DNA of 64,000 bases, taken from positions 248,001 to 312,000 of the forward strand of contig NZ_CP011267.1 in the NCBI RefSeq assembly GCF_001006045.1, written 5' to 3'. The notes beneath the pieces were generated by a model, which was not told where the DNA came from, did not search any database, and saw nothing but the letters and a program-made list of their open reading frames with translations. The stretch is from Geoglobus ahangari. GTDB lineage: Archaea; Halobacteriota; Archaeoglobi; Archaeoglobales; Archaeoglobaceae. The translations under genes and the position numbers were made by a program. Positions 41,544 to 44,357 of the stretch are shown here, one piece after another; within the stretch, counting starts at the first letter, position 1; each line of letters begins with the position of its first letter.

Positions 41544-41840
41544 TCACCAGCACCTGTACTCCCTGCACTGCTGGGGTTTTGTCTCGTGAATCCCGCAGTA
41601 CACCTTCCCATTCCTCTCCACGATGAAGGGGCACCGCTCAAGCCTGTTGCCATGCTCGTCGAACCATACCTCCCCTCCCTCGATCTTCTCCCCCTCGAGG
41701 AGGTCGTAGTAGTGGTAGACGAAGACGTGTTTGAGGATGTCGGTTCTTCCCTCCCTCATCCACCTCTTTATGTCGTCGGGGGTTGCGTATATCTTGGTCC
41801 CCATCTCAACGCAGCACTTCCCGCAGTGTCTGCAGGACAT
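41544..41840 (-). CDS. YkgJ-family Cys-rich (zinc/iron-chelating) protein
   Basis: A 98-residue protein with CRHCGKCC at the start, then CPFI, CGIHETKPQQCREYRC at the end: the eight-cysteine pattern of the YkgJ/UPF0153 family, thought to bind iron-sulfur or zinc. ATG at 41840 (MSCRHCGKCC) is the natural start. It follows the oxidase-like gene by 43 bases on the same strand. Confidence 0.82.
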   Translation of the reverse strand: MSCRHCGKCCVEMGTKIYATPDDIKRWMREGRTDILKHVFVYHYYDLLEGEKIEGGEVWFDEHGNRLERCPFIVERNGKVYCGIHETKPQQCREYRCW

Positions 41841-41883
41841 CGAAATTAAAAGAGATGAAAACAAATTAAAGCTCTTTCCCGGC

Positions 41884-43032
41884 TCATCTCCTCTGAACCA
41901 TGACCATGTCGTAGGAGAAGGCTACAAAGACTGCAAGCAGCAGCACTCCACCAAGAGCCCTGACCTGCGGGAGAAGGAGCATGACCGTTCCGATTACCGA
42001 GAGAGCGAGCAACACCTCTCCAAGCCTGAGATTGAAGAGGTCACCTATCATGGGCACGTCCTCAATTCCAAGCTTCTCAGAGTACTTTTCCATCCAGGTG
42101 ATCATCGGGATTATGTGGTACTCAGCGCCTATTATCGTCAGGGTTATCCAGCCCACCAGCATCAGGTGGGAGTGCAGGAACCTCTCGACACTCATCAGGC
42201 CGACGAAGATTCCCGCGAGGCCGAAGAAGAGTGCCGGAACGAAGAACTTCACGCTTATGTCGAGGGGGGCTGGGGTGTCGGACTTGCTTGCAAGCGTTGC
42301 AAGCAGGTTCACGACCATCAAAACAAAGGACGCCGCATAGCCAGCCCCACCGGCAGAGACAAGGCTTTCCTGTCCGCTCTGCAGACCGTAGAGCATAACA
42401 ACGAGCGAGAGAGTTGCGAGAGGAAACGTGAACCACGCAGCACTCTGACTCCTGAGCTTTCTCAGGGCCAGCATCGGAAAGAGCTCGTAAAGGCCTCCGA
42501 ACGTGGTGAGGCCGATCCAGCCTGCCGTGAGCAGGTGGTTGTGAACCGCAACCCTGAAGGGGATTGTCCCGATGAACCCGAGGGTGGCGTAGAGTATTCC
42601 GGCGAGGTGGAACAGAATAGCTGCCCCGAAGAACGGCACTGCCACGCTCCTGAGCTTCATGTCGAGCAGCGTGACGAAAACAACGGCAGCAAACGCCAGA
42701 GCTCCGAGGAAATACACAGCCCCCGAGATGCTGAACGGAAAGACACCAAAGAATGCCGCCAGAAGCATTACAAGACCTGCGTTCAGCAGGTAGAAGCTGA
42801 GCTCCGCAACACCCCTCATCCTGAGCTCAGTGCCCGTAACCGTGGGAACGAGCTGGTACATCGACCCCACTATCGTCAGGCTGACGAAGCCTGCGAGCAT
42901 CAGGTGGGAATGGACGGGTTTGAAGGAATATCCAAAGACATTGAGAATTCCCAAGAAAGCGGAAATGATCAGGTAAAAGAGCCCGAAGTACAGAAACCTG
43001 AGAGGCAGATTCCTCCACGCAACCGGAGCCAT
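41884..43032 (-). CDS. Heme-copper-oxidase subunit I-like membrane protein with three-fold repeat
   Basis: A 382-residue protein with about twelve membrane helices. Three near-identical modules begin at HSHLMLAGF (residues 41-49), HNHLLTAGW (164-172) and HSHLMLVGW (287-295), exactly 123 residues apart; each continues ...LT..G..Y..(L/I).P. The paired histidines at the start of a helix resemble heme and copper ligands of oxidase/nitric oxide reductase subunit I or NnrS. It may bind heme or copper. Immediately upstream are a DUF2249 protein and a MIP18 protein. Usual oxidase motifs such as a HPEVY-type loop are absent, so oxygen reduction is not assumed. Confidence 0.7.
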   Translation of the reverse strand: MAPVAWRNLPLRFLYFGLFYLIISAFLGILNVFGYSFKPVHSHLMLAGFVSLTIVGSMYQLVPTVTGTELRMRGVAELSFYLLNAGLVMLLAAFFGVFPFSISGAVYFLGALAFAAVVFVTLLDMKLRSVAVPFFGAAILFHLAGILYATLGFIGTIPFRVAVHNHLLTAGWIGLTTFGGLYELFPMLALRKLRSQSAAWFTFPLATLSLVVMLYGLQSGQESLVSAGGAGYAASFVLMVVNLLATLASKSDTPAPLDISVKFFVPALFFGLAGIFVGLMSVERFLHSHLMLVGWITLTIIGAEYHIIPMITWMEKYSEKLGIEDVPMIGDLFNLRLGEVLLALSVIGTVMLLLPQVRALGGVLLLAVFVAFSYDMVMVQRR

Positions 43033-43245
43033 TCACTCCCTCCAGATCCTGACTATCCACTTCTCCCCGTCAAATCTGGACTCGAACTCGTACCCCTGCT
43101 GCTTCAGCATCGTCATGAGTGGCTTTGGCTCGACCTCCACGATGATCTCTACCTCTCCGTGCTCCTTCAGCTTCTGCATTATGAGGGGTGGCCTCTCGGG
43201 ATGCGGGAGGCCGCGAACGTCCAGCCTCTCAGTCACAGCACTCAC
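43033..43245 (-). CDS. DUF2249 domain protein
   Basis: A 70-residue TusA-like domain of the DUF2249 family: RLDVRGLPHPERPPLIMQKL is the signature N-terminus, and GYEFESRFDGEKWIVRIWR the C-terminus. The typical CPxP of TusA is replaced by HPER, so it is not a sulfur carrier in the usual way. These genes accompany nitric-oxide-related and MIP18 proteins in other microbes. Its GTG start overlaps the MIP18 stop by four bases and its stop abuts the next gene. Confidence 0.8.
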   Translation of the reverse strand: MSAVTERLDVRGLPHPERPPLIMQKLKEHGEVEIIVEVEPKPLMTMLKQQGYEFESRFDGEKWIVRIWRE

Positions 43246-43511
43246 TTCCCCAGAACCTCGTTGAGCTCCTTCTCCTTCACATAACCAACAACCTTGACCT
43301 TCGCCTTCACTCCGAGCTCCTCGACGCTCCTCTTTATCGCGAAGGCAAGCTGCTGACCGATCGGGCAGAAGGGCGATGAGGGGCGGAACGTGAGGTTCAC
43401 TTCGTTACCCTCAACCTTCAGATCCTCTATCAGACCCATGTCCCACACGCTCTGCCTCGTGTGGGGATCCATAACCTTCCTGAGCTTTTCGATAACCTGC
43501 TGCTCATCCAC
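43242..43511 (-). CDS. MIP18/DUF59-family iron-sulfur assembly protein
   Basis: An 89-residue DUF59 domain: IEKLRKVMDPHTRQSVWDMGLIEDLKV and the conserved cysteine in SSPFCPIGQQLAFAIKRSV. MIP18-type proteins help Fe-S cluster insertion. GTG at 43511 is preceded by TGAGGTGA at nine bases; a TTG three bases upstream is an alternative. First gene of the four-gene operon ending in YkgJ. Confidence 0.85.
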   Translation of the reverse strand: MDEQQVIEKLRKVMDPHTRQSVWDMGLIEDLKVEGNEVNLTFRPSSPFCPIGQQLAFAIKRSVEELGVKAKVKVVGYVKEKELNEVLGK

Positions 43512-43613
43512 CAATTTCCTTCACCTCAGTCAATGTTAAGTTGCAGGTGATATATAGGACTAACCCCTAAGAATTTCAGATAGGTTTTTAACTGCCGGGA
43601 ATTATGGGAGTGC

Positions 43614-44357
43614 ATGGAGCTTCAGCACGTGGTGAGCTTTCTGGACGATTACCTGAGGATAAACTCCTATCCTGACTCCAGCGTTAACGGGCTTCAGGTT
43701 GAGGGAGGCGAGAGTGTTGAGAGAATCGCTTTCGCAGTTGATGCCTCAATGCAGAGCTTCATGTACGCGGTTGAGGTTGAGGCAGACATGCTTGTCTGCC
43801 ACCACGGCATAATCTGGAACGGCATAGAGAGGGTTACAGGGCTTGTGAAAGAGAGGCTGAAGTTCCTGCTCGAGAATGAGATCTCGCTGTACGCGGCTCA
43901 CATACCTCTCGACGCCCATCCAGAGATAGGGAACAACGCGATGATTCTGAGGAGCCTCGGAATCGAGCCCGAGGAGGAGTTTGGAGATTACAGAGGAGTG
44001 AAGATAGGGTTTGCCGGCTACACCAGCGAGGAGTTCGAGGACATCCTCGAAAAACTCGAGGAGAGGTTTGGGGACGTGGGCTACATGAAGTTTGGTGAGG
44101 ATCTGGTGGAGAAGGTCGCTGCGGTGTCTGGGAGGGGTGCGGGCTACATAGAGGAGGCTGTGAGGGCTCAGGTGGATCTGCTGATAACTGGAGAGGTGGA
44201 GCATGCTGCATACCACACCGCCAGAGACGCCGGGATGAACGTGATCTATCTGGGACACTACAGCAGCGAGACCCTCGGTCTGAAGGCGCTTATGAATGTT
44301 GTTGAGAGTGAGCTCGGCCTTGACGTGGAGTTCATAGACATACCAACAGAGCTGTAA
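43614..44357 (+). CDS. Nif3-like dinuclear metal-centre protein
   Basis: A 247-residue Nif3/DUF34 protein. NGLQVEGGESVERIAFAVDA, LVCHHGIIWNG (metal histidines), YAAHIPLDAHPEIGNNAML-like segment, and the C-terminal LITGEVEHAAYHTARDAGMNVIYLGHYSSE supply the metal ligands. The family is universal; recent ideas are nucleotide or GTP-cyclohydrolase-like hydrolysis, but function is unsettled. A TATA-like GGTTTTTAAC lies about 32 bases before the ATG. Confidence 0.9.
   Translation: MELQHVVSFLDDYLRINSYPDSSVNGLQVEGGESVERIAFAVDASMQSFMYAVEVEADMLVCHHGIIWNGIERVTGLVKERLKFLLENEISLYAAHIPLDAHPEIGNNAMILRSLGIEPEEEFGDYRGVKIGFAGYTSEEFEDILEKLEERFGDVGYMKFGEDLVEKVAAVSGRGAGYIEEAVRAQVDLLITGEVEHAAYHTARDAGMNVIYLGHYSSETLGLKALMNVVESELGLDVEFIDIPTEL

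Follow-up and report, generated by a model that had tools for sequence, protein, structure and literature searches.

The window (the whole analysed stretch of Geoglobus ahangari DNA, 64,000 nucleotides) contains a gene for an HCOH-type homologue of the heme-copper oxidases (HCO), which is neither an oxidase nor a nitric oxide (NO) reductase. With a probability of roughly 0.55, this three-unit HCOH is a multi-heme protein carrying up to three b-type hemes, and may form an NO-handling module with the DUF2249 and DUF59 proteins encoded beside it.

A three-unit protein with the heme-copper oxidase fold

G. ahangari 234T is an obligate Fe(III)-reducing vent archaeon (PMC4600277), and its genome is a single contig of 1,770,093 bases. 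The HCOH gene (41884-43032, minus strand) has an ATG start and encodes a membrane protein of 382 aa with 12 predicted TM helices. The 123-residue period and the predicted helices define three units, all on the minus strand: EU1 (residues 1-123, TM1-4; 42664..43032), EU2 (residues 124-246, TM5-8; 42295..42663), and EU3 (residues 247-369, TM9-12; 41926..42294). Each unit contains one HxH motif: HSHLMLAGF at residue 41, HNHLLTAGW at residue 164, and HSHLMLVGW at residue 287. The protein has eight His residues in total, and just 142 and 306 lie outside these motifs. Compared with itself without gaps at an offset of 123, the sequence scores +37 (BLOSUM62) across 259 positions, with 50 identities; shuffles preserving hydrophobicity and composition had a mean of -137 (sd 32), and 0 of 1000 reached +37 at any offset. 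The second-best self-match was found at offset 246. Both the spacing of the three HxH motifs and the clear three-fold signal, as claimed in an earlier note on this DNA, were borne out by this comparison. The signal is unusually clear, yet not unique: local scores between units are 84-194 in the six-His clade, 64-102 in one cbb3 CcoN protein, and 28-53 in two rhizobial relatives. A 517-aa open frame lies antisense to the HCOH gene (41731-43284 of the window, plus strand); it is a mechanical mirror ORF without sign of being real.

The target matches COX1 in Pfam (E=1e-13), and is the sole COX1-family gene in the G. ahangari genome. The AlphaFold2 model, built from a 12-sequence alignment, contains 12 long helices (pLDDT 90.9, pTM 0.90). 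The Foldseek search with this model identified cbb3 CcoN (8smr_E, TMq 0.80) as the best PDB fold, followed by aa3, bo3, and NOR subunits. The profile of 23 homologues also matched cbb3 CcoN in the PDB (E 4e-9), whereas phmmer of the PDB with the single target sequence gave no match; NCBIfam and PHROGs, searched with the target, assigned no family. Moreover, the family profiles of EU1 and EU2 align with TM9-12 of CcoN, and their HxH falls onto the HxH of CcoN TM10. The family link to the oxidases, only conjectured earlier, is thus supported by the Pfam match, the confident 12-helix model, and the CcoN fold.

At the fold level, the target belongs to the HCO superfamily, with 12 TM helices, three pseudo-symmetric 4-TM units, and similarity to subunit I. 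The catalytic ligand set of the O2/NO reductases is incomplete: H166 is present at the TM6 position, and the His-His (HH) of TM7 is absent. Because the protein has eight His in all and no TM7 HH, the CuB/FeB site of the true reductases is missing. With the HCO fold but no TM7 HH, the target is therefore an HCOH-type homologue of the HCO proteins and no oxidase. The target agrees with the three-unit HCOH class in being HCO-like, in lacking the catalytic metal ligands, and in having DUF2249 nearby. The idea of a decaying oxidase remnant was rejected; the clade is long-conserved, the operon is intact, and the six HxH residues are all kept at 41% identity.

Other oxidase-like genes were noticed during these searches. 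Two fragmented genomes of the Geoglobus genus (G004 and G005, loci L091 and L092) carry an apparent true subunit I oxidase gene, which is missing in G. ahangari and may be binning contamination; the gene at L091 encodes 537 aa with an HHQF motif. In archaeal genomes of one family (f5; L086, L087), a single ORF of 900-950 aa joins CcoN to CcoO-like and cytochrome-c-like portions.

Histidine pairs between neighbouring units

In oxidases of known structure, the ligands of the low-spin heme are at the first His position of TM2 and the second of TM10; the heme-b3/CuB site involves the first position of TM10 and the second of TM6. In the CcoN register, the TM2 His falls on the first motif position, the TM6 His on the second, and the TM10 HxH on both. 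From this register and the known ligand roles, two pairs of the target coincide with the oxidase pairs: site A (H41 and H289), the oxidase position of the low-spin heme b, and site B (H287 and H166), the heme-b3/CuB position. Rotation of the oxidase pairs by one unit predicts a third pair, EU2-first and EU1-second (site C, H164 and H43). By this register, the putative site C has no counterpart in the oxidases. The EU1 HxH (H41, H43; 42904..42912, minus strand) would thus serve sites A and C; the EU2 HxH (H164, H166; 42535..42543, minus strand) would serve C and B; and the EU3 HxH (H287, H289; 42166..42174, minus strand), which is aligned with the CcoN TM10 HxH, would serve B and A. The HCO fold, the presence of site A, and the heme-b3 His found in site B could be expected of a minimal but true O2 or NO reductase. 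However, this explanation is highly improbable, since only eight His and no TM7 HH leave no CuB/FeB ligand set, and the relatives with two pairs or one pair lack the site entirely.

The pair rule was examined in 131 proteins. The motif was located by a profile with both His columns set to zero, and the residues were then read. In the pair statistics, which pool several families (the L093-L097 family was excluded for want of an EU3 register, and NnrS was inspected but left uncounted), the cyclic pairing was the best of the 15 perfect matchings at all four redundancy levels (n=125, 89, 45, and 12). The summed phi values were 2.47, 2.45, 2.51, and 2.82, against 1.31, 1.45, 1.30, and 1.56 for the runner-up. 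In the haloarchaea alone, loss of H41 accompanies loss of H289 (Fisher p 0.003-0.005). A plain MAFFT alignment placed EU3 of the haloarchaeal members wrongly; the registers were instead taken from the His-masked profile, which is off by one residue in EU3 of a few haloarchaeal members and does not place the EU3 of L093-L097. As the His residues are gained and lost by cross-unit pairs, the functional unit is the cross-unit pair, not the HxH. Three equal HxH sites had been proposed earlier; the three-fold His set stands, whereas the equal HxH units give way to the pairs 41+289, 287+166, and 164+43, of which relatives keep three, two, or one. Homologues lacking two of the three HxH motifs, which the earlier note would have counted against its proposal, do exist literally among distant bacteria; these keep one complete cross-unit site.

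The retained pairs differ among the relatives. All members of the Archaeoglobi/Hydrothermarchaeota clade have six His apart from L018 and L019, which come from two complete genomes within the same genus and combine H166Y with H287V. This double change removes exactly one predicted heme site, site B. In the His-masked profile, most haloarchaea keep A and C, members from rhizobia, Thermus, and Aliarcobacter have C alone, and a second haloarchaeal family has B alone; A and B are found in cbb3 in the same masked register. NnrS, placed in this register by inspection, has pair A and one extra EU1 His. The predicted site C is the one conserved throughout the family proper.

Several haloarchaeal and other relatives have unusual arrangements. 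The second haloarchaeal three-unit HCOH family (L100, ORF of 398 aa; L101, 414 aa; and a second ORF in L033, 9109-10293, minus strand) keeps only the second His of EU2 and the first His of EU3, a mirror image of what the bacterial site-C family retains. In the unit tree, the EU3 of this second family clusters with the EU2 of bacteria (support 83), which looks like a shift by one unit. In a third haloarchaeal family (L093-L097, 450-484 aa), EU1 and EU2 each carry an HxH, and EU3 has a single His. The HCOH at L088 (510 aa) contains site B and one extra His; its C-terminal extension resembles a DUF1858-type domain and a CxxC stretch.

In the broad alignment, no His other than H43 and H164 is invariant, and these two alone are present in the rhizobial, Thermus, and Aliarcobacter members. 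The target might accordingly be a one-heme HCOH as already described, with heme at site C only and the other four His binding nothing or something else. This is rather unlikely: the 12-sequence archaeal set keeps the six His without exception, even at 41% identity, which is hard to explain if they are unused; A and B coincide with real oxidase sites; and both B partners are gone together in L018 and L019. In the preferred multi-heme reading, sites A and B may be empty even where their His residues are present.

Gene neighbourhood and the putative role in nitric oxide metabolism

The first gene of the operon encodes a DUF59/FeS_assembly_P protein, similar to metal-sulfur cluster assembly factors (43242..43514, minus strand; PF01883, 4e-14). 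The second gene, directly upstream of HCOH, encodes a DUF2249 protein of 70 aa from a TusA-like fold family (43033..43245, minus strand; PF10006, 5e-10). In G. ahangari, the DUF59, DUF2249, and HCOH genes are consecutive, touching or overlapping. The promoter/terminator scan of 43500-43640, with a scanner for bacterial promoters only, gave nothing. The DUF59-DUF2249-HCOH order, at times with an extra DUF2249 gene, is found at the Archaeoglobi loci and most of the Hydrothermarchaeota loci. The DUF59 gene was not found at L010, where the contig starts inside DUF2249, nor at L011. A CxxCxxCC (YkgJ-like) metal-binding protein is encoded 19 bp downstream of HCOH (41544..41864, minus strand). This gene lies directly 3' of HCOH in several Geoglobus loci only; it was not found beside HCOH in the Ferroglobus or Hydrothermarchaeota loci.

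NnrS is reported to hold copper in addition to heme. Together with the assembly-type domains of DUF59 and DUF2249 and the CxxCxxCC protein downstream, this might suggest that copper or another metal is the ligand of the HxH sites, and that the module assembles or repairs a metal centre, with DUF59 and DUF2249 as metal/sulfur carriers. However, the His register is that of the oxidase heme ligands and the cross-unit pairing matches heme bridging, which makes this explanation improbable. NnrS itself has been termed a heme-copper membrane protein (PMC1274295).

Within the Archaeoglobaceae, HCOH is carried by 7/7 Geoglobus genomes (that of the window and six more), one further genus, and the genus including Ferroglobus; it is absent from the 26 other family genomes sampled. 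These carriers match the iron reducers (Table 5, PMC4600277), and three bis-His hemes would be suitable for electron transfer. HCOH might thus serve as a cytochrome for electron transfer in Fe(III) respiration of Geoglobus and Ferroglobus, and not as an NO protein. We regard this as unlikely. The haloarchaeal, rhizobial, and Thermus relatives accompany denitrification genes; the operon partners are DUF59 and DUF2249, with no multiheme cytochromes; and the predicted hemes all lie at one depth, and so would not span the membrane.

The link between HCOH and denitrification genes is found in several distant lineages. In Sinorhizobium meliloti, Ensifer canadensis, Rhizobium etli, and Shinella, the gene order is DUF2249-HCOH-DUF2249-DUF59, and these four loci sit between norCBQD/hemN and NnrS/nirK/Crp-Fnr regulator genes. 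The Mesorhizobium variant locus has NnrS-HCOH-DUF2249-DUF1858 near nos genes. In Thermus thermophilus JL-18, nar is followed by two DUF2249 genes (in the drpAB position), a protoglobin gene, HCOH, and DUF59. The adjacency of HCOH, DUF2249, and DUF59 in G. ahangari is thus the same set as in rhizobia and Thermus. On a Haloprofundus plasmid, the HCOH gene is near nirK and three DUF2249 genes. HCOH is present in 161 of the 242 haloarchaeal genomes sampled: 120/127 of those with a strong NirK versus 41/115 of those without one (odds ratio 31, p 5e-24, with kinship ignored). It lies within 10 kb of nirK in 34 of the 102 genomes with both positions listed. The annotated family copies inspected carry the name "hypothetical protein", and three bacterial members searched against Pfam gave no match. 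A broad family of haloarchaea, rhizobia, and Thermus known by that name is thereby tied to NO metabolism.

DUF2249 proteins are induced or required during denitrification (PMC11218638, PMC6282519, PMC1274295): their genes are among the NnrR/NsrR regulon members (PMC1274295), respond to nitrate in Thermus (PMC6282519), and are induced in Haloferax (PMC11218638). The link of HCOH to DUF2249 and denitrification was already drawn by Pei et al. 2014, according to the passage citing that work in PMC11218638. The suggestion of an NnrS-like NO/O2 sensor or channel, made in the earlier note, is therefore upheld as to an NO-related setting by gene neighbourhood. NnrS identity was rejected; the target has no PF05940 match, though the model detects a real NnrS. 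No NnrS was found in the G. ahangari genome, and none was above the cut-off in 60 relatives.

We infer heme binding because the His residues are in register with the oxidase heme ligands. Most likely, up to three b-type hemes would occupy three symmetric bis-His sites near the outer membrane face, each formed by the first His of one unit and the second His of the neighbouring unit. By the positive-inside count (13 K/R inside, 3 outside), the HxH ends of TM2, TM6, and TM10 face outward. With no TM7 HH, site B probably holds a bis-His heme; the heme of site C would sit in the pore that the oxidases leave empty. These hemes may bind NO or pass electrons. The TM10-TM11 loop (W313..Y317..G322..P327..D331; 42040..42096, minus strand) is predicted to be cytoplasmic, and its residues W313, G322, P327, and D331 do not vary across the range from Geoglobus to rhizobia. 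This conserved loop might couple the hemes to iron-sulfur repair or signalling by the cytoplasmic DUF2249 and DUF59 proteins. Two points count against the NO reading. Bis-His hemes are six-coordinate, and are poor binders of NO and O2 unless a ligand leaves. G. ahangari is without denitrification, and neither NO nor N2O reductase genes are present (PMC4600277), so that its NO would need another source. In such an iron reducer, NO might arise from Fe(II) and nitrite outside the cell.

Origin of the three units and comparison with known systems

How the heme-copper oxidases arose is an old question; three fused units are usually argued to have come first. In the unit tree, EU3 of the core archaea, haloarchaea, and bacteria forms one group (support 71; core and haloarchaea 87). 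Each core unit forms its own group (61, 100, and 93), and the deeper nodes are weakly supported. As the units group across lineages, the triplication is old and predates the family of the target. A recent triplication within Geoglobus was rejected, since every unit clusters with its counterpart in relatives. Single-unit 4-TM relatives with one HxH were found at four archaeal loci: L027 and L028, from two genomes of the order to which Geoglobus belongs, and L089 and L090, from a different lineage of the phylum. Two single-unit proteins were tested against Pfam, and both match COX1 at TM9-12. All four are candidate homotrimers that would give the same six-His ring.

The unit tree and the single-unit relatives are compatible with an old ring of three like units, without proving that six His are ancestral. 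That the target is near the ancestral state, as suggested earlier, is possible; the triplication is older than its family, and the deeper nodes are weak. A bolder proposal is offered tentatively, and we give it less than even odds. The six-His clade might hold three hemes in a near-perfect three-fold ring within a single oxidase fold, one of them in the pore left empty by known oxidases. The superfamily might then have descended from a ring of this kind as sites were lost pair by pair, leaving A and B in the oxidases, A and C in the haloarchaeal HCOH, C in the bacterial HCOH, and A in NnrS. A living protein with three symmetric sites, and a pair rule that predicts the retained heme sites, would make the question of oxidase origin testable.

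Pei and co-workers reportedly described, in 2014, HCOH proteins in single-unit (4-TM) and three-unit forms; most three-unit members are said to have two conserved His and one heme. These HCOH families (Pei, Li, Kinch and Grishin 2014, Protein Sci 23:1220) are cited in passages of PMC11218638 and PMC4602095. Like the target, they have 12 TM helices in three homologous 4-TM units and are HCO-like. Unlike the two conserved His ascribed to them, the clade of the target has six His in three cyclic pairs. The HCOH class is thus already known; what appears to be new is a clade with six His and a third site foreign to the oxidases, together with the pair rule tested here, although part of this may stand in Pei et al. 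2014. The single-unit HCOH proteins have one HxH unit each, encoded by separate, unfused genes, and their homotrimer would have the six-His arrangement of the target. Among proteins of known structure, cbb3 CcoN (PDB 3mk7, 8smr, 9g6b) is the top match by both sequence and fold, with the TM10 HxH in register. However, CcoN has pairs A and B, the TM7 HH, and CuB, but no pair C; the target has C and lacks the HH. NnrS (PF05940) is also a three-unit HCO relative, adjoins denitrification genes, and lies a few genes from HCOH in rhizobia; its His pattern is pair A and the extra EU1 His, without the pair C of the target. NorB (cNOR) belongs to the same superfamily and neighbours HCOH in the rhizobial clusters, but differs from the target in having the TM7 HH and the FeB ligand set.
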